Source: a virus. Taken from it: a DNA stretch of 64,000 nt. The notes beneath the pieces were generated by a model, which saw only the letters and a list, made by a program, of their open reading frames with translations, had not been told where the DNA came from and ran no database searches. The DNA lies in IMG/VR virus record IMGVR_UViG_3300021961_008712, positions 105,751 through 169,750 of that record; one strand, 5' to 3'. Shown here one piece after another: positions 3,074 to 43,035 of this stretch. The first letter of the stretch is position 1. Each line of letters opens with the position of its first letter. A program made the translations under genes and the position numbers.

Positions 3074-3083
3074 AAGATATAGA

Positions 3084-3792: not shown

Positions 3793-3801
3793 GAGTATAT
3801 T

Positions 3802-4527: not shown

Positions 4528-4528
4528 A

Positions 4529-5716: not shown

Positions 5717-5722
5717 ATAGAT

Positions 5723-6121: not shown

Positions 6122-6125
6122 AAAA

Positions 6126-15304: not shown

Positions 15305-15613
15305 ATGGATAAAAAGTTATTACCGTCAAATGACAGATTGTTAATTCGCCCTATAGATGAAGGCGAAAAAACGTACGGAAATATTGTAATTCCCGATATG
15401 GGAAAAGAAAAGCCGGAGATGGGAGAGGTCCTCGCCACAGGCAAAGGCAGACTATCAGAGTTTGGCCATTTTATTCCAGTTAATCATAAAGTAGGTGATA
15501 TTGTACTAATACCTAAAATTGGTACTCTAAGAATCGATTTTGAGGGAGAGGAATACTTTATAGCACAAGATAGAGAAATTTTAGCAGTTGTAAGAACCAC
15601 AGAAGATGAATAA
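15305..15613 (+). CDS. groES: Co-chaperonin GroES
   Basis: A 102-residue GroES: DRLLIRPIDEGEKTYGNIVIPD (mobile loop that binds GroEL), KPEMGEVLATGKGR, KVGDIVLIPKIGT and EREILAVV-like C-terminus (REILAVVRT). It caps the GroEL ring during folding. It overlaps the groEL start by eight bases. Phage versions can tailor the chamber to large capsid proteins. The family call is secure. Confidence 0.92.
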   Translation: MDKKLLPSNDRLLIRPIDEGEKTYGNIVIPDMGKEKPEMGEVLATGKGRLSEFGHFIPVNHKVGDIVLIPKIGTLRIDFEGEEYFIAQDREILAVVRTTEDE

Positions 15614-17261
15614 AGAATTAGTTTTTAATCACGAAGCAAGACAGCAACTCTCACAAGGAGTAGAAAAATTAGCAAAGACTGTCGTTTGCACACTTGGACC
15701 TGCCGGTAGAAATGTAATTATTGAGCAGGAAGCAGGTAACCCTACTTCTACTAAAGACGGTGTTACTGTAGCTAAATCTATTAACTTAAAACATCCAGTA
15801 GAAGATATCGGAGCTCAGTTAGTAAAGCAGGCATCTATTAAGACAGGTGATCAAGCTGGAGACGGTACTACTACCTCTACCTTACTAGCAAGAGAAATTT
15901 TTCAAAAAGGTTTAGGTACCATTGGAAATAATAATGCAGTAGAAGTAAAAAAAGGAATTGAATTTGCTACTAAAACAGCAGTAGAATATTTACAAAAGAC
16001 ATCTAAAGATATAACGGACGAAGAGCAGCTAAAACAAGTCGCTACTATTTCAGCTAATAACGATAATGAAGTTGGTGAGTTAATTTCCGCTGCCATGGAT
16101 AAAGTAGGGCAAGATGGAGTCGTTACTATTGAGGAATCAAAAACAGGAGAGACCTACCTTGAAACGGTAGAAGGAATGCAATTTAGCAGAGGTTATAAGT
16201 CTCCTTATTTTGTTACTGACAATGGCTCTATGACAGCTGTTCTTCGTGATCCGTTAATCTTAATTACAGATAAAAGATTAAACGCAGTAAAAGAATTACT
16301 TCCTATCCTAGAAGCAGTCTCTCAACAGAACAAGTCACTATTAGTTATTGCAGATGATATTGATGGAGAGGCATTATCTACTATGGTAGTTAATAAGATG
16401 AGAGGTATTTTACCTGTAGTAGCAGTAAAAGCTCCTGACTTTGGAGATAGAAAAAAAGCTTCTTTAGAAGATATTGCAATCTTGACCGGAGGAACAGTAG
16501 TATCGGATCAAAAAGGTATGAGACTAGATAAGTTTCAACCCGAATGGTTAGGTAAAGCCGGTAAGGTTACTGTAACTAAAGATAAGACTACTATTATTGA
16601 TGCTAAAGGAAAAGATGTTGATATTGAAGAAAGAATTATTGATATCAAAAATCAAATCGATGATTCTAATTCCCCTTTTGAAAAAGAAAATTTACAAGAT
16701 AGATTAGGCAAGCTTGTAGGTGGTGTGGCCGTAGTACATGTCGGTGGTTATACAGAAGTAGAGTTAAAAGAGAAAAAAGATAGAGTAGATGATGCTCTCC
16801 ACGCCACCAGAGCTGCTTTAGAAGAAGGTATTCTTCCTGGAGGAGGAGTAGCGTTACTAAATGCAAGTACCTACCTACTTAATTTAAAAAAGAAAGGTGA
16901 ATTCAAAACAAAGACAGCTAGTGAGCAAGTAGGTATTCAAATACTTACAGAGGCTATTCAAGCTCCCTTTACTCAGATTTTGTACAATGCCGGTAAACAG
17001 AGAGAAGAAGTAGAAGATATTCAGAAACTAATTAACTCTAAAACAAAAGATGATTGGTACGGTTATAATTCGAGAAAAGAAGAGTATGCTGATATGTTTA
17101 AAGAAGGTATTATAGACCCAACTAAGGTTACGCGTCTAGCTTTGGAGAATGCAGTTTCTGTTGCTGGTACAATGTTAATTACTGAAGCAGTAGTATCAGT
17201 TGAGAGAGATGAAGAAAATACTAAGAAACAACCAGACGCACAACAAATGCTATTAGGATAA
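15606..17261 (+). CDS. groEL: Chaperonin GroEL
   Basis: A 551-residue GroEL. It shows TLGPAGRNVIIEQ, the ATP-site AGDGTTTSTLLAREI, the apical segment KSPYFVTDNGS, LVGGVAVVHVGGYTEVE, and ALEEGILPGGGVALL near the C-terminal equatorial domain. The usual Gly-Gly-Met tail is missing; the protein ends DAQQMLLG. A short insertion-like stretch (GKQREEVEDIQKLINSKTKDDW) precedes the YNSRKEEYADM region. Phage-encoded GroEL together with GroES is uncommon. It should fold phage proteins independently of the host rings. The nadE start overlaps its stop by one base. Confidence 0.95.
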   Translation: MNKELVFNHEARQQLSQGVEKLAKTVVCTLGPAGRNVIIEQEAGNPTSTKDGVTVAKSINLKHPVEDIGAQLVKQASIKTGDQAGDGTTTSTLLAREIFQKGLGTIGNNNAVEVKKGIEFATKTAVEYLQKTSKDITDEEQLKQVATISANNDNEVGELISAAMDKVGQDGVVTIEESKTGETYLETVEGMQFSRGYKSPYFVTDNGSMTAVLRDPLILITDKRLNAVKELLPILEAVSQQNKSLLVIADDIDGEALSTMVVNKMRGILPVVAVKAPDFGDRKKASLEDIAILTGGTVVSDQKGMRLDKFQPEWLGKAGKVTVTKDKTTIIDAKGKDVDIEERIIDIKNQIDDSNSPFEKENLQDRLGKLVGGVAVVHVGGYTEVELKEKKDRVDDALHATRAALEEGILPGGGVALLNASTYLLNLKKKGEFKTKTASEQVGIQILTEAIQAPFTQILYNAGKQREEVEDIQKLINSKTKDDWYGYNSRKEEYADMFKEGIIDPTKVTRLALENAVSVAGTMLITEAVVSVERDEENTKKQPDAQQMLLG

Positions 17262-24757: not shown

Positions 24758-24781
24758 AAGGGACTTTATGTCCCTTTTTTT
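24758..24781 (+). terminator. Rho-independent terminator
   Basis: AAGGGAC at 24758-24764 pairs perfectly with GTCCCTT at 24770-24776 across a five-base loop, followed by a T-run to 24781. It is the only clear intrinsic terminator in the window and separates the preceding genes from the exported-protein block. Confidence 0.88.
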
Positions 24782-24928
24782 GTGTGCTTTACGATACTAA
24801 GTATATTTATAAGTATACCCGAAAAGTGCGATAAACCGGCTGATTTCTACGGTAAAAGTACACACTAGTTATTCCCAACTTTTATACTAAAGAGTTTTAA
24901 AGTGTTTTAAACAAACTAGAATAACTAT
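24782..24928 (+). promoter_or_regulatory. Leader of the exported-protein block with a 9-bp inverted repeat
   Basis: This gene-free stretch holds a TATATTTAT motif (24802-24810) and the inverted repeat TAGTTATTC (24866-24874)/GAATAACTA (24919-24927). The right arm ends one base before the ATG at 24929, so the folded RNA could hide the start, or the repeat could be an operator. No TTG-N20-TATATT promoter is seen here. Confidence 0.45.
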
Positions 24929-25396
24929 ATGAGAAAATTACTAGTGTTACTATGTTTAGTTTTTAGTTCTAATAGTTTTGCTCAAGAACTAAACGTAGTA
25001 GACGTACAGAATCGAATACAAATAGGAGACCTGGCAGGTAATCGTGATCTGTCTTTTGGTGTTAAAAACGTATTGGAAGAAGTCATTCAGGATAAAGGCT
25101 ACGACCTCAATCCAAAATCCCCCAACACTCTAGAAGTAGAACTACTTTATTTTGATGTTCAAAAAGGATCATTGCAATTAGGTGCATATGGTAAGAACAT
25201 AGATGTATATCAAATCATAGCTAGAGGAACAGCAATTATAGACGGTAAATCAAAAACAGCTGTAGCTAAAGGCACAGCTAAATCTATATCTACATCTACC
25301 CTTATTTTAGATCAGGGAGGAAATTTCTCACAAGCTAACGTTTCCACAGCTATAAAAAAATTATGTGAAGACTTAATAAAAAATCTTAAACTATGA
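24929..25396 (+). CDS. Exported periplasmic protein, YajG/CsgG-neighbour type
   Basis: A 155-residue protein with a Sec signal peptide (MRKLLVLLCLVFSSNSFA, cleavage before QELN). The mature part has GVKNVLEEVIQDKGYDL, a beta-rich centre and VSTAIKKLCEDLIKNL. This alpha/beta layout (short helix, beta strands, terminal helix) resembles small periplasmic proteins such as YajG and the helper domains of CsgG-like systems. It overlaps the next gene by four bases and begins the exported block. Confidence 0.6.
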   Translation: MRKLLVLLCLVFSSNSFAQELNVVDVQNRIQIGDLAGNRDLSFGVKNVLEEVIQDKGYDLNPKSPNTLEVELLYFDVQKGSLQLGAYGKNIDVYQIIARGTAIIDGKSKTAVAKGTAKSISTSTLILDQGGNFSQANVSTAIKKLCEDLIKNLKL

Positions 25397-27069
25397 AAAC
25401 ACTTTTGTATCTACTTTATTTTTTATTTCCTATATCTGTTTTAGCACAGCAGGGATATGTAAGCCATAGCTATACTAATGCAGTACCGGAAGGAGGGTTT
25501 GTTGTAGGAGATACGCTTACAGTAAAAATAGAAATAATAGATAACAGTAGTAACATTACACCAGACCATACTATGTTGGACTTCCAGTGGAATAATAAAC
25601 TATTACAGTTTGTTGATATAACCTGGAATACTACTGAACTGCCCTCAGATGTTCAAAAGAACTGGTCTAATTGGACAGGGTACTCTTTTAATGAACTAAC
25701 TACTCACGAAGGCGTAGCAGTAGCATCAAGCGAATTATCCATTCAGTATGAACATGGATGGTTAAACAGAGGTGGTTCTTATTCTGATGCTAGCGACTGG
25801 ACAGTAGGTAGAATAACACTTCAATCTGCTAGTGATTTACCCCTTTCAACTCCACTTGCTGAATTTAGATTTATACTTAAAGATAGACAAGGTACTAACT
25901 ACGGAGATTATACTAATATTACGAACTTAAACTGGGCCAAAGTAGAGGATATAGCAGGGGGATCTGGACTATATGTAATTCATGCAGGTACTGAAAAGAT
26001 TAGTGTAAATAATGTAGGAGGAGTAGGCGCAGGAAATATAACAATAAACTTAAATTCTGCAGCAGCAGCATCACATGCTACAGACTTTACATATAAGATA
26101 TACCAGACAGATGCAAATAATAATGAAACAGTAGCAGCATCTGGAGACTTTGATGCAAACGGACAAATAATTACCAATACTTTAGTATTAGGAGAGACCT
26201 ATAATATTGACATTAAAGTAGATGATAATGCAACCTGGTTAAATGATGTTATGACAGTAACAGATGCATATCTAATATTTCAAGAAGCACTTTCTGTTGG
26301 AACAACACCAGGAGGTCAACAAAATGCATTTACAAAGAGTATTCAATACCTACTAGGAGAATTAAATAATTCTGGAAATGTAACATTTGAGGATTCTTAC
26401 ATTGCTTTAGCTCATATTAGCGGTGTAGAAACTAATAGCACTTGGTATACTTCTACTACTAATGGAGCTAAAAATATTTGGGGAGACACAGGACAATACG
26501 GTGTAAGTACAAATGAATACTACTTTGGTCAAAAGAAAGTATTTACTTTAGACGGTACTACTACTTTTAATTTTGGCCACGGTCTCGTAGGTGATGTGGA
26601 TTTTTCACATGGATTTGAACCAACAGCTGACGTACAAACTAACTCATCTGCTAAAAACTATGCTCCACAGACAATGCTATCTAGAGCTCAGAATCCTGTA
26701 ACAGCTAATTTAGATATAGTCTCTGAATTAGTAAACGGTAAAGTAGTTTTGACTATTAATTTAGCAGAAGCGGGAATAGTAGGTACACAGTTTGATATAA
26801 GATACGACAATACAGTTTTAACTTTCGAATCTGCTAATTTTGATACAGGAAATGAAATGACTAATTTTAGTAACCATAATGCTAATCTGTCTAAAATTTT
26901 CGTAGGCTCTTTGGATGGCACAGGAGAAAGTACTATTAAAACAGGTGCACCGTATAAGTTAGTTTTTGTACCTAATCAAGCATTACAGAATACTGCAGGA
27001 TTAGTAAGCTTCTTTTTCACAGAAGGAGTAAAAGGAGATGGAACAAAAGTAAAATTTAACATGCAATAA
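25393..27069 (+). CDS. Secreted cohesin/dockerin-like protein
   Basis: A 558-residue protein with a signal peptide (MKTLLYLLYFLFPISVLAQ). The mature protein begins with a cohesin-like beta domain (VPEGGFVVGDTLTVKIEII, LDFQWNNKLLQFVDI). A central part has VNDVMTVTDAYLIF-like and NSGNVTFEDSYIALAHISG segments, which resemble dockerin calcium-loop helices. The C-terminus is another cohesin-like domain (GIVGTQFDIRYDNTVLTFESANF). It lacks an obvious type IX secretion tail. It is probably delivered to the periplasm or cell surface as part of the adjoining CsgG-like locus; its binding partner is unknown. Confidence 0.6.
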   Translation: MKTLLYLLYFLFPISVLAQQGYVSHSYTNAVPEGGFVVGDTLTVKIEIIDNSSNITPDHTMLDFQWNNKLLQFVDITWNTTELPSDVQKNWSNWTGYSFNELTTHEGVAVASSELSIQYEHGWLNRGGSYSDASDWTVGRITLQSASDLPLSTPLAEFRFILKDRQGTNYGDYTNITNLNWAKVEDIAGGSGLYVIHAGTEKISVNNVGGVGAGNITINLNSAAAASHATDFTYKIYQTDANNNETVAASGDFDANGQIITNTLVLGETYNIDIKVDDNATWLNDVMTVTDAYLIFQEALSVGTTPGGQQNAFTKSIQYLLGELNNSGNVTFEDSYIALAHISGVETNSTWYTSTTNGAKNIWGDTGQYGVSTNEYYFGQKKVFTLDGTTTFNFGHGLVGDVDFSHGFEPTADVQTNSSAKNYAPQTMLSRAQNPVTANLDIVSELVNGKVVLTINLAEAGIVGTQFDIRYDNTVLTFESANFDTGNEMTNFSNHNANLSKIFVGSLDGTGESTIKTGAPYKLVFVPNQALQNTAGLVSFFFTEGVKGDGTKVKFNMQ

Positions 27070-27070
27070 T

Positions 27071-27439
27071 ATGAAAAAATTATCAATACTATTATTAATA
27101 TTAGTAGCAGGCTGTATAACAGATCCTATTGAAGACTTTAAGTACACTATTGAAACTCCCGAATCACTAATGATAGAAGATTTCAAAGGTATAAAATTAG
27201 AGTCCTATATAGTTACTGAAGAAGTTAGAATAAATGCTAAGCTACCCACGGCTGGTAAATATAGAATTAAGATAAGAAATTTTACTAGTACAGTAGTAAG
27301 TCAAGAAATCATAAACGGAGATGCAGGAGACAATATTCTGAATGTTTATGTTAGAACTTTAGAGCCAAGCTCTTATACAATAGAACTATTAACTGAAGAC
27401 AATCTTCTAGTTGGAAGATCTGCTTTCGCAATTAATTAA
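27071..27439 (+). CDS. Lipoprotein
   Basis: A 122-residue protein with a lipobox: MKKLSILLLILVAGC, Cys15 being the lipidated residue. The mature part is beta-rich, with KLPTAGKYRIKIRNFTSTVVSQEIINGDAGDN and NVYVRTLEPSSYTIELL, like a small Ig-like domain of the T9SS-sorting-domain type (…GxYxIxLxxxDNxLVGR). It starts one base after the preceding gene and is likely anchored in the outer membrane with the other exported proteins. Confidence 0.65.
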   Translation: MKKLSILLLILVAGCITDPIEDFKYTIETPESLMIEDFKGIKLESYIVTEEVRINAKLPTAGKYRIKIRNFTSTVVSQEIINGDAGDNILNVYVRTLEPSSYTIELLTEDNLLVGRSAFAIN

Positions 27440-27443
27440 AAAG

Positions 27444-27722
27444 ATGGAAGAAAAATCAGAAGGCGGCTTTTTTAGCCAAATTAAAAACCAGGTAATAACT
27501 ACGGTTGGCGTTATTATAACTGCCGCTGGAGGATTGGTTGTTACTAACATGGAAACTATCTTTGGTGTTCAATCAGAACCAGAGAAAGTAGAAGTGGTAA
27601 ACGATAGTAAAAGCCCTATAAAGGAAAGCAGCAAAGATACTATCGTAGTTATTCAAAAAACAGAGAAGCCAGTTCTAGTGAAACCGGCTCCTCAGAAAAA
27701 AGAAAGAGAACTTGATTGGTAA
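27444..27722 (+). CDS. Small membrane protein with basic tail
   Basis: A 92-residue protein. The ATG at 27444 is chosen over one at 27411 inside the lipoprotein gene. A single membrane segment (VITTVGVIITAAGGLVVTN) follows a short cytoplasmic head; the tail is Lys/Glu/Pro-rich (ESSKDTIVVIQKTEKPVLVKPAPQKKE). The topology suggests an inner-membrane protein reaching into the periplasm, perhaps linking the membrane with exported partners. Confidence 0.5.
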   Translation: MEEKSEGGFFSQIKNQVITTVGVIITAAGGLVVTNMETIFGVQSEPEKVEVVNDSKSPIKESSKDTIVVIQKTEKPVLVKPAPQKKERELDW

Positions 27723-27739
27723 CCTTTAATTTAACAACT

Positions 27740-27964
27740 ATGACACAAGCTATTAAATTCGTCACAACCCCTTTCATTGAAATATATGAAGAAATTTTCA
27801 AACAGCCAACTTTAGGCTTAAAAATCTTACAAAGTCTTATATTCCTCTGGGTAACAGGATTATTTTTACTCTTTGTTGTCGGATGGACAACATTAGTAGT
27901 CGCTATGATTATTGGTAAAGCTGATTTTAGTAACGCTACGTTTGGGGTATTTGATTACCTGTGA
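27740..27964 (+). CDS. Small membrane protein
   Basis: A 74-residue protein with one long hydrophobic region (LQSLIFLWVTGLFLLFVVGWTTLVVAMIIG) after an amphipathic head (FVTTPFIEIYEEIF). The ATG at 27740 is chosen over 27716, which overlaps the previous gene. It overlaps the CsgG-like gene by four bases (GTGA), indicating coupling. The function is unknown. Confidence 0.5.
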   Translation: MTQAIKFVTTPFIEIYEEIFKQPTLGLKILQSLIFLWVTGLFLLFVVGWTTLVVAMIIGKADFSNATFGVFDYL

Positions 27965-28683
27965 TTAAATACATTACTACAGTACTGCTTGCGGTATTAT
28001 CCTGTAGTAGTACTTTTGCCCAAGTTGTCGGGAAAACAACAACGGAGTCTTATCAATCTGACTTTGAAAAAAAAGCCTCAATATATTCAATACCAGAATA
28101 CAATGGTGAACCCGTTCCTGTTGCTCTCCTAGACATAGGTGTATCAGAAGAAGTTTTAAATCAGTACCCAGAACTTAGAGACGGTAGAGTAGGTCTTGGA
28201 CTTACTAATATTACTGTTGCATTCTTAGATGAAACCTTTAGATTCGAATTTGTAGAAACTAGAGAAGAAATCAAAGATAGAATGGTAACGCAGTATAAGG
28301 CATCTCAAAAAGGGTTTACTGCAAACCAAACTAATATAGTTGGTAAAATTACATTAGCTAAATACTTCTGCTATGTAGAGGTATATGACTACTCTGTATC
28401 TGAAGATGAAACTGTAAACTTAAAAGACGGTATAGAAAATACTTTAGTAACAAGATTAGGACTACAAGTTCGTATGGTTGATGCTGAAACAGGATTATAT
28501 ATGACTGGTTCAGGATTAGGAGATGCGATTACTAAGAGAGAACTGACATTCTTAAACGATTCCAATTTAGATGAAGTACAATTTAACTCTTCATCAGTAG
28601 GTGTTGCTACTAGAAAAGCTCTAGAAACAGCAGTAGCTAAAATTGTAAAAAGAATGATTCAGAAGAAAGTCTTTGATCATTAA
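27961..28683 (+). CDS. CsgG-like outer-membrane secretion protein
   Basis: A 240-residue protein starting at GTG, with a signal peptide (ITTVLLAVLSCSSTFAQ). A Cys in the signal region (SCSS) may be a weak lipobox. The mature part shows VPVALLDIGVSEE, a central variable part, LVTRLGLQVRMVDAETGLYMTGSG and a final helix VGVATRKALETAVAKIVKRM. This is the CsgG pattern; CsgG forms the nonameric curli export pore in the outer membrane. It sits amid exported proteins, so it may export one of them. The transmembrane hairpins are not certain by eye. Confidence 0.62.
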   Translation: MIKYITTVLLAVLSCSSTFAQVVGKTTTESYQSDFEKKASIYSIPEYNGEPVPVALLDIGVSEEVLNQYPELRDGRVGLGLTNITVAFLDETFRFEFVETREEIKDRMVTQYKASQKGFTANQTNIVGKITLAKYFCYVEVYDYSVSEDETVNLKDGIENTLVTRLGLQVRMVDAETGLYMTGSGLGDAITKRELTFLNDSNLDEVQFNSSSVGVATRKALETAVAKIVKRMIQKKVFDH

Positions 28684-28688
28684 TTGTT

Positions 28689-30191
28689 ATGAGAAGGTTA
28701 CTACTCGTTTTATTATTTGCTGCAATAGGTACGGGCAAGAGCTATTCACAGGCTCTTGTCCAAACCTACGTAGATAGATGTACAGGACAAGTACACGTTT
28801 TTTCTGTACCTATGACCGGTCAAACAGTAGTAGCTTTTTATAATAAATCCAGAACTTTTACTGCTCAAGAATTTACTGACGGTACCTTACAGGCATGGTT
28901 AGAACAAACCTATCAGTGGTGGTCTGCATTATCTCCTTGTTCTACAAATCAAGCTAACACTACAACAACTCAACAAACCACAACACAGGCAACTAGTCAA
29001 GCAACAACCGCAGCAACTAATGCTACTCAAAATACTACAACAAATGCAACAACAGGATCAACAAACACAAACAGTACAGCAACCACTGGAGGAACTTCCT
29101 CAGGGGACACCAGTTCCGGAAGTACAGGAAGCGGAACTGAAAGTGGGTCTTCTAACTCGAATTCGGGTTCAAGCTCTTCAGATACAGGTGGTACTTCTGG
29201 AGATGGTAATAGCGGGGATGGAGGTTCATCCGGAGACGGAGGAGGCTCTAGCGGAGAAGAAGGCTCTGGTGGAGGAGAAGAAACTAAAAATGAAGAATCT
29301 AATGAACAAAAGTCTGAAGAAAGCTCTGAAGAAAGCTCTGAAGAAAAAGAAGAAGTAGAAAAAGAAGAGAGTTCAGAAGAAGAAGAAGAAAAGAAAGAAG
29401 AATCATCGGAAGACTCCTCAGAAGAAGAAGAAAAGAAAGAAGAAAAGAAAAAGAAATTAGCTCCTCCAGTCATAGCTGCTAACTTAGTAACAATGTCCAT
29501 GCTTGATGGTACTTTATCTCAAGCAGCATCTTTTGGGTATTCTCAATCATCTCTTACAGGTCTAGATACCTATAACGTAAATGGAATGTTATGGTCAAAC
29601 CTTCAACAATACAGTATCAACCTATCTAAAAGCCATGTATTTTTCAACTATGATAAACCGAGAGAAGTTAAAATTAAAAATGCTTTTGGAGAAGAAGAAA
29701 TTTTAGGAACAGTACTTGAAAGAGGTTCTATTCTCAAGGTTCAATCTATATCTGCAGGATACATGAAAATGTTTACTACTGATATCATAACAGTAGGAAT
29801 TAGTGATGTATTCTTAGGACAAAAAGATAACTTCTGGAAAGGTTTTGCAGGAGGATGGGCATTTACTGGAATGGTAATGTTCATGGATGAAGTTAACCCC
29901 TTATTTACATCAGCTATAACAGTGTTTGGTACTAAACCATTCATTGTACCTTTCTACAAAAGACTAACCGTAGCACCAATGTTAGCATATTCAGCTACGC
30001 CCTTAACGGTGGATCTTAAAACTAGACAGGGATATTATGATATCAATGGCTCATATGTAATTGGTAGCAATTTTGACTTTAACCTTACTCAGAGATTTAA
30101 AGCTAATATAGGGTTTACTACAATTGGTTCAACTATTAAGGACGTTCCACTGAGCTGGGCTATTACGGTTGGCTCTAGATTCGCTTTTTAG
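28689..30191 (+). CDS. Outer-membrane barrel-like protein with long low-complexity linker
   Basis: A 500-residue protein with a signal peptide (MRRLLLVLLFAAIGTGKSYSQ). A small N-terminal domain of about 75 residues (TYVDRCTGQVHVF...WWSALSPC) is followed by a Thr/Gln-, then Gly/Ser-, then Glu/Ser/Lys-rich linker (DNA about 28950-29455). The C-terminal 240 residues have alternating hydrophobic strands, NIGFTTIGSTIKDVPLSW and a final Phe (VGSRFAF), as in outer-membrane beta-barrels. It ends the exported block. The linker could bridge membranes or bind a surface; the function is unknown. Confidence 0.6.
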   Translation: MRRLLLVLLFAAIGTGKSYSQALVQTYVDRCTGQVHVFSVPMTGQTVVAFYNKSRTFTAQEFTDGTLQAWLEQTYQWWSALSPCSTNQANTTTTQQTTTQATSQATTAATNATQNTTTNATTGSTNTNSTATTGGTSSGDTSSGSTGSGTESGSSNSNSGSSSSDTGGTSGDGNSGDGGSSGDGGGSSGEEGSGGGEETKNEESNEQKSEESSEESSEEKEEVEKEESSEEEEEKKEESSEDSSEEEEKKEEKKKKLAPPVIAANLVTMSMLDGTLSQAASFGYSQSSLTGLDTYNVNGMLWSNLQQYSINLSKSHVFFNYDKPREVKIKNAFGEEEILGTVLERGSILKVQSISAGYMKMFTTDIITVGISDVFLGQKDNFWKGFAGGWAFTGMVMFMDEVNPLFTSAITVFGTKPFIVPFYKRLTVAPMLAYSATPLTVDLKTRQGYYDINGSYVIGSNFDFNLTQRFKANIGFTTIGSTIKDVPLSWAITVGSRFAF

Positions 30192-34978: not shown

Positions 34979-35176
34979 ATGAAAGAAGAGAAACTTACAT
35001 CAGTAAAAATTACACAGCCATTATTTGACGAGTTTAAAATGGCATCCTTACAGAACAACTTTTCGTTTAAAAAGCTTGCAGATAGAGCAATTTTTCTTTA
35101 TCTTACTAATAAGGAATTCCGTGAATTAATTCATAAACAAACAAATTTAAAATTAAAAGTTACGAATGAAAGATAA
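34979..35176 (+). CDS. Small DNA-binding-like regulator (ribbon-helix-helix type)
   Basis: A 65-residue protein: KLTSVKITQPLFDEFKMASLQNNFSFKKLADRAIFLYL. A short beta strand followed by two helices fits a ribbon-helix-helix repressor and also resembles a small phage protein common next to nucleases. No DNA target is visible. It overlaps the following glycosyltransferase by 11 bases. Confidence 0.5.
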   Translation: MKEEKLTSVKITQPLFDEFKMASLQNNFSFKKLADRAIFLYLTNKEFRELIHKQTNLKLKVTNER

Positions 35177-36608
35177 GTTTTTACCTTTACCGAAAAACGA
35201 GCGTAAAAAAATCTTACTGCTGTGTGATGATATAAGAATGCATTCTGGTATCGGTACAATGGCAAGAGAATTTGTGCTTGGTACAGCACACCATTTCAAC
35301 TGGTTTAATGTTGGAGCAGCAATTAAACACGGAGATAAAGGTAAAGTATTAGACCTTTCAGAAGACATTAACAAGACATTAGGAATGACTGATGCAGATG
35401 TTAGGGTTCTTCCTTATGATGGGTATGGTGATCCAATGCTTATACGTACGCTTCTTAAGCAGGAAAAACCAGATGCTATTTTTATCTTTACAGATCCTAG
35501 ATACTGGGTATGGTTATTTGAAATAGAAAGAGAAGTTCGAACTCAAGTACCTATTATATGGTTAAATATTTGGGATGATTATCCCGCTCCTAATTACAAT
35601 AAACATTATTACGATTCAGTTGATGCTTTATTAGCAATCTCTCAACAAACTCAAGTAATTAATGAATTAGTATTAAAAGAAAAAATAGATACAAAAATCT
35701 CAGAATATATTCCTCACGGTATTAATCATGAACTTTTCAAACCTATTGAGGATAAGAATTCAAAAGAGTTTTTAGATTTTAAGAATGGAGTACTACATAA
35801 TAAAGATTATGATTTTATAGTATTCTTCAATTCTAGAAACATTCATAGAAAAAGACCAGGAGACGTAATACTATCTTATAGAATGTTCTGTGATATGATA
35901 GGCAAAGAGAAAGCAGCTAAGTGTGCTCTTATAATGCATACGGCTTCTGTGGATCCTAACGGTACAGACTTAAATGCAGTCAAAGCAGCTATATGCCCTC
36001 CAGATTACGTAAACGTATATTTTTCTCAGAGCAAGATTAACCCTGCTCAAATGAATGGCCTATATAACTTAGCTGATTTAACTCTTCTCATTTCCTCTAA
36101 CGAAGGTTGGGGGCTATCATTAACTGAATCAATGATGGCAGGTACTATGATTGCAGCTAATGTAACAGGAGGAATGCAAGATCAAATGAGATTCGAAGAT
36201 GATAATGGTAACTGGGTTAAGCTATCTAAAGACTTTCCTTCTAACCATAGAGGTACGTATAAGAAGTGTGGTGCTTGGGCTGAGCCTATTTTTCCTAATA
36301 ACATTTCATTAGCAGGTTCTCCTCCTACACCGTATATTTTTGATGATAGATGCTCACCAGAAGACACTGCTAAAGCTATTTTAAATGTTTATGTATTATC
36401 TCCTGAAGAGAGAAACGAAAGAGGATTAAAAGGTAGAGAGTGGGCTATGTCTGAAGAAGCAGGCTTCACAGGAGAGAAAATGAGTAATAGAATTATTAAT
36501 GCTGTGGATAAAAGTATTGAATCGTTTGTACCTAGGTCTAATTTTGATTTAGTTATTGCCGATGAAAGACCCTCAGTAATGGTTGAACATAAATTAGCAG
36601 GTTATTGA
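35166..36608 (+). CDS. Glycosyltransferase, GT4/GT1 type
   Basis: A 480-residue GT-B enzyme. The N-terminal domain begins KKILLLCDDIRMHSGIGTMAREFV, where GIG contacts the acceptor. The C-terminal nucleotide-sugar site shows VFFNSRNIHRKRP and LLISSNEGWGLSLTESMMAGTMIAANVTGG, the Glu-x7-Glu motif typical of GT4. It transfers a sugar from a nucleotide or lipid donor. It starts the glycan locus and ends one base before a second GT4 gene. Confidence 0.82.
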   Translation: MKDKFLPLPKNERKKILLLCDDIRMHSGIGTMAREFVLGTAHHFNWFNVGAAIKHGDKGKVLDLSEDINKTLGMTDADVRVLPYDGYGDPMLIRTLLKQEKPDAIFIFTDPRYWVWLFEIEREVRTQVPIIWLNIWDDYPAPNYNKHYYDSVDALLAISQQTQVINELVLKEKIDTKISEYIPHGINHELFKPIEDKNSKEFLDFKNGVLHNKDYDFIVFFNSRNIHRKRPGDVILSYRMFCDMIGKEKAAKCALIMHTASVDPNGTDLNAVKAAICPPDYVNVYFSQSKINPAQMNGLYNLADLTLLISSNEGWGLSLTESMMAGTMIAANVTGGMQDQMRFEDDNGNWVKLSKDFPSNHRGTYKKCGAWAEPIFPNNISLAGSPPTPYIFDDRCSPEDTAKAILNVYVLSPEERNERGLKGREWAMSEEAGFTGEKMSNRIINAVDKSIESFVPRSNFDLVIADERPSVMVEHKLAGY

Positions 36609-36609
36609 T

Positions 36610-37902
36610 ATGAATAAAACAAGAATAACAGTCAGTTGTCCAATAGATACATATTCTGGATATGGAGCAAGATCAAGAGACCTAGTTAAAGCTATTCTTG
36701 CTACAGGCAAGTATGATGTTACGATTTTAAGCCAACGTTGGGGTAATACTAGATTTGGATATCTAAAAGACCATAATGAACAAGAATTACAGAGTTTAAT
36801 TATACCAAACCTATCCGCTCAACCTGAAGTATGGATCCAGATTACTGTTCCAAACGAGTTTCAGCCTGTTGGTAAATATAATATTGGTGTAACTGCAGGC
36901 ATAGAAACAACCTTATGTCATCATACATGGATTGAAGGATGTAATAGAATGAATCTAATTTTAACATCTTCTAATCACTCTATGAAGGTATTCCAAGAAG
37001 CTAAGATAGATATTTTAGACCCTAAAACAAATCAGAAAATTAAGGAACTTACATTAGAAAAACCTATTGAAGTATTATTAGAAGGAGTTGATACAACTAA
37101 ATATTTTCCAACTAAAGATTCCTCAACATCTGAAGTTGCTACTGCATTGGGTTCTATTAAAGAACAGTTCTGTTATTTAGCTGTAGGTCATTGGATGCAA
37201 GGAGACTTTGGACACGATAGAAAGAATATCGGCTATACAGTTAAATCGTTCCTAGAATCATTTAAAAATAAACAAGTTAAACCAGCATTAATTCTTAAAA
37301 CTAGCCAGGCTAACTCTTCAATATTAGATAGAGAAAGAATTTTAGACAAGATAGATGCAATTAAAAAAACAGTTAAAGGTACTTTACCTAATGTGTACTT
37401 ACTTCACGGAGAGATATCTGATGAAGATATGAATACTCTCTATAATCATCCTAAAGTAAAAGTGATGGTAAGCCACACTAAAGGTGAAGGGTATGGCAGG
37501 CCTTTAGCTGAATTTGCTGCAGTAGGGAAACCTATCATAGCATCAGGTTGGTCAGGACAAACAGACTTTTTACATAGAGAAGAGAGTATACTAATAGGAG
37601 GTCAATTAGAAAAACTGCACCCATCCTCAGTACAAAAAGATATACTACTAGCAGAGTCTATGTGGTTTACTCCTAGTGATGTAGATGTTAATAAGGCCTA
37701 TAAGCAGACGTATAAACACTATAAAGATTGTATAGCAGGTGCTAGAAAACAGAAAAGAAGAATTCTTGATGGATTTACTTTCGAAAAAATGCAACAAATT
37801 CTTGATGAGATTCTAGATAAAAATATTCCTGAATTTCCTAAAGAGATTAAGTTGACATTACCAAAATTAGATTTACCTAAATTAGAAAAAATAGATGGAT
37901 AA
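36610..37902 (+). CDS. Glycosyltransferase, GT4 type
   Basis: A 430-residue GT-B enzyme beginning TRITVSCPIDTYSGYGARSRDLVKAIL, with YLAVGHWMQGDFGHDRKN and VMVSHTKGEGYGRPLAEFAAVGKPIIASGWSG. The last is the Glu-x7-Glu nucleotide-sugar motif. It is a companion to the preceding gene and probably adds the next sugar. It overlaps a zinc-ribbon gene by eight bases. Confidence 0.82.
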   Translation: MNKTRITVSCPIDTYSGYGARSRDLVKAILATGKYDVTILSQRWGNTRFGYLKDHNEQELQSLIIPNLSAQPEVWIQITVPNEFQPVGKYNIGVTAGIETTLCHHTWIEGCNRMNLILTSSNHSMKVFQEAKIDILDPKTNQKIKELTLEKPIEVLLEGVDTTKYFPTKDSSTSEVATALGSIKEQFCYLAVGHWMQGDFGHDRKNIGYTVKSFLESFKNKQVKPALILKTSQANSSILDRERILDKIDAIKKTVKGTLPNVYLLHGEISDEDMNTLYNHPKVKVMVSHTKGEGYGRPLAEFAAVGKPIIASGWSGQTDFLHREESILIGGQLEKLHPSSVQKDILLAESMWFTPSDVDVNKAYKQTYKHYKDCIAGARKQKRRILDGFTFEKMQQILDEILDKNIPEFPKEIKLTLPKLDLPKLEKIDG

Positions 37903-38344
37903 ATTAGTTGACTGTACTAGATGTGGCGGCAATGCTTGCTATGAACAGGTTATTAATGAAGAAGTAACTACATGGATGTGTATGGGATGTGGATTTACCA
38001 CTTCTACAATACTTACAGAAGGAAGTGCCTTACATAATAACTTAATAGAAACCGCTCCAGAATTATATAAAGACCTATTAGTTGTAGATAAGAATAATAG
38101 AGTTTGGGCCCCTTCTACTATCACTATTCCAAAAAAAGGAATGGTATTTGCTGATGGTACCGAAAAAAGAAACTGGACTTGGACTGCTGTAAAAGCTGTA
38201 AAATTAACCAAAGAAGAGATTGATTCTAAAAAATACCCAGAAGGTAATGAATGGAGAATGGATATGCAAAATAAAAAATCCTTTAACTCTAATGACTTTA
38301 TGGACGCTATGGATCATATTGGATTCTTTCAAGTAGAGCTATGA
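37895..38344 (+). CDS. Zinc-ribbon protein
   Basis: A 149-residue protein with an N-terminal zinc ribbon: DCTRCGGNACYEQ and WMCMGCGFTTS. The rest has no recognised motif; KGMVFADGTEKRNWTWTAVKAVKL suggests a small beta domain also found in phage proteins of unknown function. It overlaps both neighbouring glycosyltransferase genes. Confidence 0.55.
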   Translation: MDKLVDCTRCGGNACYEQVINEEVTTWMCMGCGFTTSTILTEGSALHNNLIETAPELYKDLLVVDKNNRVWAPSTITIPKKGMVFADGTEKRNWTWTAVKAVKLTKEEIDSKKYPEGNEWRMDMQNKKSFNSNDFMDAMDHIGFFQVEL

Positions 38345-38964
38345 AAATAAGTTATGCAATAACTGTTTGTAATGAAAAGAAGGAAGTAAAGCGATTGGTG
38401 GACTTTCTTTTATTCTATAAACGTCCAATAGACGAAATAGTTGTATTGTATGACCAGAAAAACGGAGATGATGCAGTCATCAGAATGCTCACTAAGATGA
38501 ATAAGCTGCCTAACTTCCAAGTATGGAGAGGATTTTTTGATAATGACTTTGCTGCTTGGAAGAATAAGCTTAAAGATTACTGCAAAGGAGATTACATATT
38601 TCAGATAGATGCTGATGAAATACCTAACAAAGCTCTTATTAAAAATCTTCCTACTATATTGACATCAAACCCAGATAATGAAGTATACTTAGTACCTAGA
38701 GTAAATACAGTCAAAGGTCTAACACAAGAACATGTTGATCGATGGAGATGGAACGTAAGCGATAAAGGTTGGATAAATTGGCCAGACTATCAGTGGCGCA
38801 TTTGGAAAAATAAATCTGAGATAATTTGGAAGAATAGGGTACATGAAAAACTTGATGGTTTTAAAACATACTCCCTTTTTCCTGCTCAAGAAGAGTTAGC
38901 TTTATATCATCCAAAAGATATAGAACGTCAAGAAAAACAGAACGCTTATTACGATACATTATGA
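38341..38964 (+). CDS. Glycosyltransferase family 2-like protein
   Basis: A 207-residue GT-A enzyme: ISYAITVCNEKKEVKRLVDFL, VVLYDQKNGDDA, and DYIFQIDADEIPNKALI with the Asp-x-Asp metal site. VHEKLDGF and an aromatic-rich WPDYQWRIWK segment fit the beta-1,4-glucosyltransferase-type GT2 group (LgtF/WaaE-like). It overlaps the next small gene by four bases. Donor and acceptor unknown. Confidence 0.78.
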   Translation: MKISYAITVCNEKKEVKRLVDFLLFYKRPIDEIVVLYDQKNGDDAVIRMLTKMNKLPNFQVWRGFFDNDFAAWKNKLKDYCKGDYIFQIDADEIPNKALIKNLPTILTSNPDNEVYLVPRVNTVKGLTQEHVDRWRWNVSDKGWINWPDYQWRIWKNKSEIIWKNRVHEKLDGFKTYSLFPAQEELALYHPKDIERQEKQNAYYDTL

Positions 38965-39119
38965 TTAAAATAGATGTTAAAATCGGCGATACTATTATGA
39001 CTGGTCGATTTAAAAATAAAAGAGTAAAAGTTAAAACTATTGAATACGATGAATTTGGTATGCCTATTATAAATGGTAGACCTGCATGTACTTTTAGATT
39101 AGTTCCAAACCCAAGATAG
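38961..39119 (+). CDS. Small conserved phage protein
   Basis: A 52-residue protein, MIKIDVKIGDTIMTGRFKNKRVKVKTIEYDEFGMPIINGRPACTFRL in outline (GDTIMTGRFKNKRV, GMPIINGRPA). The 'VGDxIxxGRFKNKxVxVKxI...NGR' pattern recurs as a small beta protein in many myoviruses and may be an RNA-binding-like beta barrel. The function is unknown. It overlaps the upstream glycosyltransferase by four bases. Confidence 0.6.
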   Translation: MIKIDVKIGDTIMTGRFKNKRVKVKTIEYDEFGMPIINGRPACTFRLVPNPR

Positions 39120-39121
39120 CC

Positions 39122-39130
39122 ATATTTATT
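39122..39130 (+). promoter_or_regulatory. Late-type A/T motif candidate
   Basis: ATATTTATTA starting just after the preceding stop, only a few bases before the ATG at 39134. Same class as 21983 and 52075. Confidence 0.3.
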
Positions 39131-39133
39131 ATT

Positions 39134-39724
39134 ATGGAATATAAAGAAGCACTATCATTAGCAGACGGAGTAAAAGGTTCCTTGATCGAATTAGGATTCG
39201 GTAAAGGTAACAGCTTGAAAGAGTTCATAGGATATATGAATAATTTAGATATTAGTAAACGTAATATTTGGATATATGAATCTTTCGATGGATATAATAC
39301 TCCAACTGTAGAAGACAAGGGTGCATTTAAAAAAGGAGAATTTAAAAGACCTCCTCATCCTGCTTACGATATTCAGCATACAATCAATACAGAAGTAAAA
39401 CTAGTAAAAGGGTATATAGAAGAAACACTTCCAAAGAATTACGATAAAAGTCAAGTAGCTATTATACATTCACATTTGATTAGTTACTCAAGTACTTTGC
39501 ATGGATTAAATAGTTTCTCTAAGTACTTGATTCCTGGCGGCATTATTGTAGTTACTGACTATGAAGCTTTTCCTGGGACTAAACAAGCAGTTGATGAATT
39601 TATTGCCCAACATAACCCTCACTATAGATTAGTAGAAGCTAATAGTAATTTTGCACTAATTAAAAGGGTACCTGTTAAAGATTTTAAAACTAAAGTACAA
39701 AGATCGAGATCGTCTATGACTTAG
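39134..39724 (+). CDS. TylF/macrocin-O-methyltransferase-like protein
   Basis: A 196-residue class I methyltransferase. GSLIELGFGKGNSLKEFI is the SAM-binding glycine loop, WIYESFDGYNTP the acidic second strand, and VAIIHSHLISYSSTLHGLNSF with IVVTDYEAFPGTKQAVDEF corresponds to the TylF metal region (usually hxDxDxY; the first Asp is replaced by His-Ser-His here). It probably methylates a sugar hydroxyl. Promoter P13 starts at its last codon. Confidence 0.7.
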   Translation: MEYKEALSLADGVKGSLIELGFGKGNSLKEFIGYMNNLDISKRNIWIYESFDGYNTPTVEDKGAFKKGEFKRPPHPAYDIQHTINTEVKLVKGYIEETLPKNYDKSQVAIIHSHLISYSSTLHGLNSFSKYLIPGGIIVVTDYEAFPGTKQAVDEFIAQHNPHYRLVEANSNFALIKRVPVKDFKTKVQRSRSSMT

Positions 39725-39753
39725 TTGGTTATGACATAAATTTTTCGTATATT
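39725..39753 (+). promoter_or_regulatory. Bacteroidota-type promoter P13
   Basis: TTG at 39725-39727, a 20-base spacer ending TTCG, TATATT at 39748-39753. The ATG at 39759 is six bases on, so the message of the nonulosonate genes may be leaderless. Confidence 0.77.
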
Positions 39754-39758
39754 GTAAT

Positions 39759-40061
39759 ATGGTTATATATGTAGACATCGATGAAACTATTGCTGATTAT
39801 TTACCAGATCAGGATAGAAGAGCTTATGATAAAGCTACACCAATTCATATCAATATAGACAAGATAAACAAGCTCTATGACGAAGGTCATGAGATCACTT
39901 ACTGGACTGCAAGAGGTACTCTTTCCGGAATAGACTGGTATGATGTTACTAAAAAGCAGCTTGATGAGTGGGGATGTAAATATCATAATTTGATCACAGG
40001 TCAAAAGCCTGCATACGATTTATTAATTTGTGATAAAAGTAAACGAATAGAAGAGCTATAA
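39759..40061 (+). CDS. HAD-like phosphatase
   Basis: A 100-residue HAD-fold protein. VIYVDIDETIADYL carries the nucleophile Asp and acid/base Asp, EITYWTARGTLSG the motif II Thr, and YDLLICDKSKR the end region with Lys. Short HAD proteins of this type sit in capsule and sialic-acid loci. It may dephosphorylate a sugar phosphate such as the nonulosonate 9-phosphate. It overlaps the next gene by one base. Confidence 0.72.
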   Translation: MVIYVDIDETIADYLPDQDRRAYDKATPIHINIDKINKLYDEGHEITYWTARGTLSGIDWYDVTKKQLDEWGCKYHNLITGQKPAYDLLICDKSKRIEEL

Positions 40062-40378
40062 TGAGTCAGATTTATATTACTAAAAAGAAAAGATTTGATT
40101 CTTTAGCTGAGGGTCATATTAAGAATATAGATATACAGTACGTAACTAAAGGAGTAGAAGTAGTTGAAGTATATACAAAAGATCAAGTAGAGTTAGTACA
40201 GGAATACGATGAAGAGAAGGACTATGCTCTATATAAACCGATTGCTCCAGGACGAAAAGTTATCCTACGACCATATGAAATTTTAGTTCTATACCCAGAA
40301 GATTTACACATCCCAGGTTTAGCTCTAGACGAAGAAGAAGAAGTAGAAAAAGTAGTTATTAAAATACCATACAAATGA
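40061..40378 (+). CDS. YhcH/YjgK/YiaL-family protein
   Basis: A 105-residue cupin-like protein. AEGHIKNIDIQYVTKGVE, QEYDEEKDYALYKP and LYPEDLHIPGLALDEEEEVEKVVIKIPYK match the YhcH family, whose members work in sialic acid metabolism, probably helping anomer conversion. The typical 'EVHRKYIDIQY' opening is shortened here. It overlaps neuB by four bases, which supports a role with nonulosonic acids. Confidence 0.75.
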   Translation: MSQIYITKKKRFDSLAEGHIKNIDIQYVTKGVEVVEVYTKDQVELVQEYDEEKDYALYKPIAPGRKVILRPYEILVLYPEDLHIPGLALDEEEEVEKVVIKIPYK

Positions 40379-41226
40379 AAAGAACCTACATTATAGGCGA
40401 GATTGGAATTAATCATCAAGGAGATATTAATATAGCAAAGAGGCTTATTGATATTGCCGCAGCATCTGGATGTGATGCTGTAAAATTTCAGAAAAGGAAC
40501 CCGGACGTTTGTGTGCCAGAGGCACAAAAGAACAAACCGAGAAGCTGGCAAGGAGTGGATATGACATATCTTGAGTACAAATACAAAGTCGAATTCGGCA
40601 AGGAAGAGTATGATGAGATTGATCGTTACTGCAAGCAACAAGGCATTGCCTGGTCAGCTTCTCCCTGGGATCTTGATTCTGTAGACTTTCTAGAACAGTA
40701 CAACTTACCATTCATCAAAATTCCCTCAGCTTCCTTAACCGACGATGCACTACTAACTGCATGTGTTAAAAGGTTTCCTAGAGTAATTTTCTCTACAGGT
40801 ATGTCGACTGAGGAGGAAATTGATCATGCAGTAGACACATTGAGAAAAGCTAAGTTCTACTTTAAAAAGACAGAACCAATAGGGCTACTTCATTGTAATT
40901 CTACTTACCCTGCCCCTATAAATGAATTGAATCTATCTGCTATTAAAACACTAGCTGATAAGTATCCTGATTTTGAAATAGGATACTCAGGTCATGAGTT
41001 TAGGTTAGGTACTTCCGTTGCTGCAGTTTACTTAGGAGCTTCAATTATAGAAAGACATATCACTTTAGATAGAACAATGGAAGGCTCAGATCACATGGCA
41101 TCTGTTGAACCTCAAGGATTATTTAAACTTGTATCTGGTATTAGAGAACTAGAACAAGCTTATGGTGATGGTATAATTAAAGTAACTGAATCAGAAAAAC
41201 CTGTAAGGGAAAAACTTAGAGGATAA
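40375..41226 (+). CDS. neuB: Nonulosonate (N-acetylneuraminate-like) synthase
   Basis: NeuB-type enzymes condense phosphoenolpyruvate with a six-carbon amino-sugar to give a sialic, legionaminic or pseudaminic acid. The 283-residue protein has YIIGEIGINHQGDINIAKRL, DAVKFQKRNPD, IAWSASPWDLDSVDFL, FIKIPSASLTDDALL, LLHCNSTYPAP and ERHITLDRTMEGSDHMAS. All are in the catalytic barrel. The C-terminal antifreeze-like SAF domain of ordinary NeuB (about 60 residues) is missing. Which nine-carbon acid is made cannot be read from the sequence. Confidence 0.9.
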   Translation: MKRTYIIGEIGINHQGDINIAKRLIDIAAASGCDAVKFQKRNPDVCVPEAQKNKPRSWQGVDMTYLEYKYKVEFGKEEYDEIDRYCKQQGIAWSASPWDLDSVDFLEQYNLPFIKIPSASLTDDALLTACVKRFPRVIFSTGMSTEEEIDHAVDTLRKAKFYFKKTEPIGLLHCNSTYPAPINELNLSAIKTLADKYPDFEIGYSGHEFRLGTSVAAVYLGASIIERHITLDRTMEGSDHMASVEPQGLFKLVSGIRELEQAYGDGIIKVTESEKPVREKLRG

Positions 41227-42311
41227 TGAATATTCTACATTTAGGAGTATTTGACAGGAACATTGGAGATAATATTGCTCTAGCTCATGTAGAATACTCT
41301 TTAAATAAGTACATAGGAGAGGTAGGAGTATATAAAGTTAATTTAGAATCATTCTGGAGACATGATAACTCTTTAGAATATACTAGAAGCGTCTATAACC
41401 AGTTTGTAGGTAAGATAGATGCTATACTAGTTGGAGGCGGAGGCCTGATAGAATACAGTGGTTATGAAAATAAGAAGAGCGGTTGGAAGTTGCCTTTTTG
41501 GCATGAGACTTTAAAGTTTATAAAAGTACCTATATACTACTATGGCTTGGGAGTCAATACCTTTAGAGGAGGAGAGGAATACTCTGAAGAGGCAAAAAAA
41601 GCATTAACAGACACTATAAATCATGCCACAGCTTTCTCAGTAAGAAACGATGGATCATATGAAAAGTTAGCTAACTGGATTAAACTAGATAAAAAAACTC
41701 TTTCTAAAGTTGAAGTCGTACCAGACCCAGGACTACTACATTTAGATGGATTTGGAATAGAAAGAAAGCAAACAGTTACTAACTTAGGCTTTCAACCAGC
41801 GATAAATGTTAACTCTGGTATTAATATACATCGTTTTGGAGAGAATGGATTATCTCAACTAATAAAGAGGTTTGAGAATACTCCTTCTTATCCTCATACT
41901 GCTAATGATTTTCTATTTGGTAAACCAGTAGTGCAGAGGTATGAATTTTTAAGACATTATAAATACTTTGACAAGTTTCATGAATTTTTATATCAATATC
42001 CTAAATCAGATTACGTAGTCTCTATGAGAGGTCACGGACAGATGATAACTATGGGAATGAACATACCTGGGATTTATTTGAGTTCACAAGATAAAGTTAG
42101 AGACTTCTCCTTACTTAATGGTTTTAAAGACTATGATGTAGATATGAGAGAGGAACATTGGCCTGAAATCCTTGAGGAATGTATTGCTAAAATGACAGAA
42201 CCTAATTCTAAATACCTAGAAAATTGGTACGATATTAGAGATGAATTTATTAATGATTGTCATAAAATAGATGAAAATTGGATTAAAAAACATTTTGATT
42301 CTATTGGATAA
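41226..42311 (+). CDS. Polysaccharide pyruvyl transferase family protein
   Basis: A 361-residue protein of the CsaB/WcaK family. It shows NILHLGVFDRNIGDNIAL, DAILVGGGGLIEYSGY, VPIYYYGLGVNTF, TAFSVRNDGSYEKL and YVVSMRGHGQMITMGMNIPGIYLSSQDK, the last being the conserved RxH...G substrate region. These enzymes move a pyruvyl group from phosphoenolpyruvate to a sugar as a ketal. It overlaps neuB by one base and may decorate the same glycan. Confidence 0.82.
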   Translation: MNILHLGVFDRNIGDNIALAHVEYSLNKYIGEVGVYKVNLESFWRHDNSLEYTRSVYNQFVGKIDAILVGGGGLIEYSGYENKKSGWKLPFWHETLKFIKVPIYYYGLGVNTFRGGEEYSEEAKKALTDTINHATAFSVRNDGSYEKLANWIKLDKKTLSKVEVVPDPGLLHLDGFGIERKQTVTNLGFQPAINVNSGINIHRFGENGLSQLIKRFENTPSYPHTANDFLFGKPVVQRYEFLRHYKYFDKFHEFLYQYPKSDYVVSMRGHGQMITMGMNIPGIYLSSQDKVRDFSLLNGFKDYDVDMREEHWPEILEECIAKMTEPNSKYLENWYDIRDEFINDCHKIDENWIKKHFDSIG

Positions 42312-42322
42312 TTTACTATATT
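42295..42322 (+). promoter_or_regulatory. Bacteroidota-type promoter P14
   Basis: TTG at 42295-42297, a 19-base spacer, TATATT at 42317-42322, nine bases before the ATG at 42331. Confidence 0.62.
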
Positions 42323-42330
42323 AAGATAAT

Positions 42331-43035
42331 ATGAACTTTCAAAAAAAATATACAGACAGAGACATTTTAATCATCGGAGGTGGAACATCTACGTTAGATA
42401 GAAAATGGGAAAATATAATTGACGATAAGACTTTTATATGGACCTGTAATGATTTCTATTTGAATGATAGAGTATGTAAGCAGAACATTGACTTATATCA
42501 GCTTGCCTATACTACTGAGTTAGATAATCCAAAACTAATTAAAAAGTTAAAAGATAATAAACCGTTTGTATACTATGAGTTTGATCACTATAGACAAAAA
42601 TACAAAGAACCGGAATTCAAACAATTTGAATCAAATATTGGTTTTGGCGTACCAGGAATGAATATAGATATGGGAGAATGGTTTTATCGACCTGCACAGA
42701 AATCAGGAGCGGTTCTTAGATTAATTTTACTAGCACAAGTTACTAATGCTAAAAATATCTATTTTGTAGGCTATGACGGGTTTAATAAAAGTTTTTCTAA
42801 TAAGCATGCTTTTACTGGGCATGTAGGTCTGAAAGATACAGATCATAGAAGAGATTACGATGGTAATGAATTATCATATGTTAATGTTTTTGAAGATGCT
42901 TACAAACTATTAGCACATAATAAAGCATGTAAGAAATTACAAAACTTAGGAGAGGGATTAGATTATAATTTAGGTACAAGAATAAGTCAGCAATATTTTC
43001 CATTAAGACCAGAAGTATATGAAGCCATTAGATAG
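42331..43035 (+). CDS. DUF115/sialyltransferase-fold-like protein
   Basis: A 234-residue protein with ILIIGGGTSTLDRKWENI at the start, a nucleotide-binding glycine loop, TFIWTCNDFYLNDR and AKNIYFVGYDGFNKSF. This matches DUF115/MptE-like and GT42-like sialyltransferase folds, which use CMP-activated or phosphorylated substrates. It lies between neuB and the CMP-sugar synthetase, so a sialyltransferase-like role is an appealing inference. A related protein is encoded at 45603. Confidence 0.6.
   Translation: MNFQKKYTDRDILIIGGGTSTLDRKWENIIDDKTFIWTCNDFYLNDRVCKQNIDLYQLAYTTELDNPKLIKKLKDNKPFVYYEFDHYRQKYKEPEFKQFESNIGFGVPGMNIDMGEWFYRPAQKSGAVLRLILLAQVTNAKNIYFVGYDGFNKSFSNKHAFTGHVGLKDTDHRRDYDGNELSYVNVFEDAYKLLAHNKACKKLQNLGEGLDYNLGTRISQQYFPLRPEVYEAIR

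Follow-up and report, generated by a model that had tools for sequence, protein, structure and literature searches.

A conserved seven-gene phage module with a predicted CsgG-fold protein and a cohesin-dockerin adhesin, possibly acting across the envelope of Flavobacterium-like hosts

Introduction

Phage CsgFG operons (PMC7029224, PMC9004378) and phage-encoded cargo of the type IX secretion system (T9SS; PMC7468147, PMC6949934) have each been described separately. The purpose of phage 'curli' genes has been puzzling since the pelagimyophages, and lysis, uptake and sibling capture have all been proposed for them. Here, we analysed a module of seven genes, designated Yaj, COH6, LIP, TM2, TM27, CSGG and OMP, at positions 24929-30191 of a 64,000-nucleotide stretch of viral DNA (hereafter the window), which is the final 64 kb of the 169,750-base IMG/VR record IMGVR_UViG_3300021961_008712. 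Like the CsgFG operons of pelagimyophages and methylophage Melnitz (PMC7029224, PMC9004378), whose function is unproven, the module combines a predicted phage CsgG-fold protein with a small conserved gene set and has no curli subunits. However, the CsgFG operons have recognisable CsgG and CsgF, whereas the module has neither a PF03783 match nor CsgF, and it adds an adhesin with cohesin and dockerin domains, a barrel, a protein of the inner membrane and a further CsgG-fold paralogue, all of which distinguish it from those operons.

A likeness of another kind is found in 'Cryophage' (PMC7468147) and crAss-like BACON contigs (PMC6949934), which also encode T9SS type A sorting-domain proteins, PA14 proteins among them; these are isolated variable genes, whereas the module is a fixed envelope set in which a cohesin is joined to the sorting domain and the partner proteins bear dockerins. 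In the immuto phages of Flavobacterium sp. LMO8, the module proteins gp013-gp015 are predicted to resemble a cellulosome scaffold, with a surface-anchored cohesin protein and dockerin partners, one of which carries a lectin. Unlike cellulosomes, this set is phage-encoded and has one cohesin and no enzymes, and its cohesin-dockerin pairing is predicted. Bacterial exporters provide further comparisons: PelC rings dock beneath the PelB barrel (PMC12141448), and in FapF a disordered linker joins the N-terminal periplasmic part to a 12-strand barrel (PMC5557850). The module shares with PelB-PelC a CsgG-fold periplasmic protein adjoining an outer-membrane barrel, and with FapF a 12-strand barrel whose N-terminal part stands on a disordered linker. 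Unlike the Pel and Fap systems, it has no Pel or Fap substrates and no sequence relation to them, and the FapF-type exporter is a plugged trimer with an N-terminal coiled coil, serving Fap substrates of which none was seen in the module. If the module shields the infected cell, it would also resemble Llp, the superinfection-exclusion lipoprotein of phage T5 (PMC9586334), which goes to the host outer membrane and stops useless adsorption to infected cells and debris, although Llp is a single small lipoprotein of the periplasm with FhuA as its target and the module has seven genes. No description of the module, or of its function in immuto, was found in the open-licence literature.

Results

The same gene content and order were recovered in more than 100 distinct viral loci, which is far from what would be expected by chance. 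Three IMG/VR searches with CSGG and its alignments gave 103 deduplicated loci, including the window and immuto. Among the 75 loci with full context, OMP was present in 75, TM2 in 72 and Yaj in 55; OMP lay at most three genes downstream of CSGG in 74, and the TM2-CSGG-OMP order was kept in 72-75. When the search was reversed and the fused adhesin of the relatives (see below) was used as the query, CSGG was present in all 70 loci long enough to hold it, and all three of CSGG, OMP and TM2 were present in 61 of 61 loci with at least 2.6 kb of downstream sequence. The adhesin-query set was largely new, with 36 of its 47 distinct loci absent from the CSGG-query set. Variable, unrelated gene order and a predicted structure lacking the CsgG fold had been named in a preliminary description of the locus as outcomes that would count against it; the gene order is conserved in relatives, and the predicted structure has the CsgG fold.

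The immuto phages were the only isolates with the CSGG family among 50,697 phage records, and a distant DNA search among phages gave no match. In 84,980 bacterial and archaeal genomes, the family had three matches, all on contigs of metagenome-assembled genomes (MAGs), and in 301 Flavobacteriaceae genomes it had one, from the same MAG and on a phage-bearing contig. With so few cellular matches, the module is therefore essentially viral, and derivation from a host operon was rejected because the single Flavobacteriaceae match is itself phage-associated. The carriers are large viruses of Flavobacterium-like bacteria. Other exported proteins were seen near the module: a non-specific DNA/RNA endonuclease occurs there in many loci (L006:7419-7967 and relatives; Pfam E 6e-24) and could degrade the DNA of superinfecting phages in the periplasm, and a HExxH-type protein of ~150 aa (L054:11604-12056 and relatives; 32 members) is possibly a small metallopeptidase.

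The preliminary description had called CSGG 'CsgG-like', and this holds for the fold but not for the sequence family. A Foldseek search with the AlphaFold2 model returned CsgG first (4uv2; E 2.8e-8, probability 1.00), followed by PelC, GNA1162 and FlgT, and comparison with BFVD gave a phage CsgG (E 2e-8); the TM-scores of these matches were only 0.4-0.5, and the model confidence was moderate. The PF03783 hidden Markov model (HMM), on the other hand, gave no match above its curated cut-off, and hhalign against E. coli and flavobacterial CsgG was not significant and no better than controls, while the same search detected CsgG in 25 of 101 Flavobacteriaceae. Membership in the CsgG (PF03783) family was dropped on these grounds and the fold alone was kept, so that CSGG has a predicted CsgG fold and is probably periplasmic. 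Its function as a pore is not supported. A strict lipobox is present in only 13 of 104 family members, and the signal of the window protein ends in FA-Q, which is of the signal-peptidase-I type. The loops equivalent to the CsgG hairpins are 20-24 and 27-29 aa long (24 and 38 aa in E. coli CsgG), mostly with 5-9 charged residues each, or about one third of the loop, and no CsgA, CsgB, CsgE or CsgF partner was found by Pfam among the neighbouring proteins. Together with the missing PF03783 match, these features leave the curli-type export pore suggested earlier unsupported. Yaj is paralogous to CSGG (BLAST E 7e-7; hhalign probability 98), and its match to Lipoprotein_16 was below the cut-off (E 4e-4).

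In OMP, an N-terminal domain with two invariant Cys residues is followed by a disordered Ser/Thr/Glu-rich linker, the length of which is highly variable among relatives, and by a barrel of 12 strands in a confident AlphaFold2 model. The Foldseek matches of this barrel were the porins KdgM, NanC and OmpG, and FapF. A charged helix ahead of the barrel was of low confidence in the model and is not claimed as a plug. For the two small membrane proteins, the starts at 27444 (TM2) and 27740 (TM27) were favoured by family alignments, and a TTG start of TM2 at 27411 is less likely. Every TM2 member inspected ends in Trp after a Pro/charged tail, which in sequence resembles a docking peptide, and the position of TM27 is held by holin-like small transmembrane proteins in other loci.

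The secreted cohesin/dockerin-like protein noticed earlier was confirmed in COH6, the dockerin clearly (local dockerin HMM, E 2e-17) and the cohesin below the Pfam cut-off (E 0.0015, 19.1 bits against 24.1), although the cohesin of relatives, the immuto homologue among them, exceeds it. In most relatives, the adhesin is a fused protein of ~630 aa with Ig-like, dockerin, cohesin and C-terminal T9SS sorting domains, and TIGR04183 was present in 10 of 10 such relatives. COH6 aligns with the first ~540 residues of the fused form and is colinear with immuto gp014 plus gp015, into which the immuto adhesin is split: gp014 has the dockerin, and gp015 has the cohesin (36.7 bits, cut-off 24.1) and the sorting domain (TIGR04183, 44.8 bits, cut-off 23). 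The neighbouring gp013 consists of a C-type lectin and a dockerin. Throughout the immuto genome, dockerins were found only in gp013 and gp014 and cohesin only in gp015, all within the module. The window module has the domain content of a cohesin-dockerin scaffold, with the pairing itself predicted. Across loci, the adhesive domains vary at the same place (C-type lectin, LamG and PA14/GLEYA).

TIGR04183 (Por_Secre_tail) had no match anywhere in the window genome. The LIP domain resembles sorting domains (hhalign probability 87, against at most 1 for 16 control families), and among 77 loci with enough sequence, 48 had a T9SS-type protein without LIP, 28 had LIP without a T9SS-type protein and one had a diverged LIP. 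The two are mutually exclusive, and the simplest reading is that they are alternative anchors for the same scaffold. The Bacteroidetes surface-export signal (LES) is K-(D/E)2 after the lipid Cys (PMC5080379); in the LIP family, an acidic residue is found at +3 in 19 and at +4 in 25 of 33 members, compared with a background of 11%.

The window module directly precedes the lysis genes, as previously described, with a holin-like gene at 30237, an amidase endolysin at 30513 and Rz-like genes at 31461 and 31708. Window 1-56 kb and immuto 30-64 kb are colinear, and in the window the module lies exactly between the Zn-finger gene at 24488 and the holin-like gene. In immuto the flanking synteny closes up, the corresponding genes (43106 and 43386) being direct neighbours at 43.1-43.7 kb, and the module (gp013-gp019) is found elsewhere, at 10.5-16.4 kb, where genes for ribonucleotide reductase and nucleases adjoin it and the holin and endolysin genes are ~27 kb away. 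A fixed linkage to lysis genes thus does not hold. Given these two positions in otherwise colinear phages, the module moves as a unit and is not intrinsic to lysis, and the outer-membrane lysis role considered earlier is weakened.

The seven open reading frames are packed on one strand, where neighbours overlap or stand apart by no more than ~20 bases (Table 1), and their signal peptides, lipobox and transmembrane segments agree with the preliminary description, whose list of seven genes and their kinds stands. A hairpin that is terminator-like in sequence separates the module from the Zn-finger gene. A second window copy of the motif TATTTATA, at 30195, precedes the holin-like gene, and in immuto the motif stands just ahead of gp013 and also of the holin-like gene. 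In immuto it lies within 70 bp of 15 of 42 structural-region starts and 4 of 74 other starts (Fisher p 4e-5), a test to be read as indicative since manual selection from the annotation supplied the starts and part of the same data had served to find the motif. Taken alone, the motif suggests that the module is expressed late. A generic Bacteroidota -7 box occurred at chance level, and neither Rfam nor defence-system models gave a match. A motif around TTAGGTATCAATAATTAAAA was also observed at 28-77 kb of immuto (NC_055915), upstream in 11-14 of 29 gaps between small genes and almost absent from structural-region gaps; it marks a probable early promoter class.

Table 1 Features of the module and its upstream region in the window
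Feature	Position	Strand	Description
Intrinsic-terminator-like hairpin + T run	24758..24776	+	3' of upstream Zn-finger gene
TATTTATA, late-promoter-like motif	24804..24811	+	Ahead of module
Yaj	24929..25396	+	Predicted exported periplasmic protein, 155 aa; short paralogue of CSGG
COH6	25393..27069	+	Predicted exported adhesin, 558 aa; dockerin aa 283-355, cohesin-like aa ~454-528, without T9SS sorting domain
LIP	27071..27439	+	Predicted lipoprotein, 122 aa; lipobox VAGC then acidic residues; T9SS-sorting-domain-like fold
TM2	27444..27722	+	Predicted inner-membrane protein, one transmembrane segment; Pro/Lys-rich tail, invariant C-terminal Trp
TM27	27740..27964	+	Predicted small membrane protein
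CSGG	27961..28683	+	Predicted exported CsgG-fold periplasmic protein, 240 aa; GTG start
OMP	28689..30191	+	Predicted exported protein, 500 aa; N-terminal domain, disordered linker, 12-strand outer-membrane barrel

Elsewhere in the window, homologues of QueD, QueE, FolE and DpdA (1004-8207; 70-76% to immuto) suggest 7-deazaguanine DNA modification. Phage GroES and GroEL are encoded at 15305-17261, and an FG-GAP repeat (beta-propeller) protein at 57437-58663.

Discussion

We propose that the module is a phage-specific, late, trans-envelope system which displays a cohesin-dockerin scaffold on the infected cell, and we judge the chances of this proposal to be about even. It was drawn from the observation that the parts are directed to both membranes, to the periplasm between them and to the surface, and that they come inseparably linked to the cohesin-dockerin adhesin. 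It retains the earlier idea that the phage encodes a dedicated envelope machine, which spans both membranes and is tied to an adhesive protein at the surface. The formation of a complex and its surface location are what we infer from these parts. The host Sec system would export them, TM2 would be anchored in the inner membrane and extend its tail into the periplasm, CSGG and Yaj would act in the periplasm, and OMP would serve as a 12-strand barrel with a long periplasmic leash. Jointly, the parts would help to bring the scaffold, whether alone or accompanied by glycan-binding partners, to the cell exterior and to anchor it there. Anchoring in most relatives would use the T9SS type A sorting domain and the host T9SS; in the window lineage, where a sorting-type domain is on a separate lipoprotein, anchoring would probably be by lipid.

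Coating of the infected cell and its debris may hide surface glycans from progeny or competing phages and prevent their binding. Shielding or superinfection exclusion, the latter suggested earlier, may be its role. Speculatively, we prefer shielding as the most likely benefit, with adhesion nearly as likely; two features favour it, the apparently late timing of the module and the large island of glycosyltransferase genes in the phage genome. This island (window 35166-50046) encodes glycosyltransferases, a polysaccharide pyruvyl transferase and a GtrB-like protein, is partly common to immuto gp181-gp169, and is probably used to rewrite the host surface polysaccharide as well. A bolder version, in which CsgG-fold paralogues, barrel and host T9SS or lipid anchor form a self-contained, phage-evolved display system that builds a cellulosome-like coat with no known cellular counterpart, is possible but rather doubtful.

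Several points weigh against the display proposal. The module was analysed here at the level of sequence and predicted structure, and only one of five AlphaFold2 models of CSGG, made with 15 homologues, was good (pLDDT 73.9 vs 37-45). The window adhesin has neither a sorting domain nor an identified route across the outer membrane, the surface-export signal of the window LIP is weak, with CITDPIED only partly fitting LES, and the window's own module showed no recognisable lectin domain. In addition, TATTTATA is AT-rich, and its minus-strand control gave 15 vs 30 hits.

The constant adjacency of CSGG and OMP, together with the CsgG, PelC and FapF-type structural matches, could also indicate a dedicated export pore, in which a CSGG oligomer in the outer membrane like CsgG, or docked under OMP, exports the adhesin without T9SS. 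The curli CsgG of host Flavobacteriaceae (L171-L174), at ~480 aa and with barrel-like sequence after the CsgG domain, fits this idea, which is most persuasive for loci of the LIP type, the window among them, where the adhesin has no T9SS signal. However, a clear lipobox is missing from CSGG, its counterparts of the barrel-forming CsgG hairpins are shorter and about one third charged, and most relatives retain CSGG and OMP despite a T9SS signal, so that we regard such a pore as unlikely. We would give the same weight to adhesion or aggregation, in which the scaffold makes infected cells or debris stick to particles or to hosts nearby; the interchange of C-type lectin, LamG and PA14/GLEYA domains agrees with it, as does the 'sibling capture' proposed for pelagimyophage curli genes (PMC7029224), but clumping was not observed for methylophage Melnitz, which carries csgFG (PMC9004378).

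A lysis-associated device that opens the outer membrane or times its breakage would explain the late motif, the place of the window module directly ahead of the lysis genes, and the holin- or endolysin-like gene close to the module in 63 of the 75 loci. Nevertheless, the immuto module is remote from holin and endolysin, the window lysis region has its own Rz-like pair and its own motif, and no lysis role is known for cohesin, dockerin or lectin parts, which makes this explanation quite improbable. Decoration of released virions by cohesin-dockerin pairing is the least probable by far. It is in line with the late motif common to structural genes, but the candidate decorating proteins bear signal peptides, the immuto lectin is unrelated to tail proteins, and decoration was set aside as cohesin, dockerin and lectin occur nowhere else in immuto. 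Receptor masking through a domain common to tail fibres was rejected for lack of homology.

In conclusion, a CsgG-fold protein that is inseparable from a surface adhesin in more than 100 loci, and movable from lysis genes, points to surface remodelling, and the question of what phage 'curli' genes do is open to testing in the cultured pair of immuto and Flavobacterium sp. LMO8. Host remodelling by a surface scaffold has not previously been described as a system. If the proposal is true, the module would clearly exemplify the use of the host type IX secretion system by phages, together with a conserved set of accessory genes.

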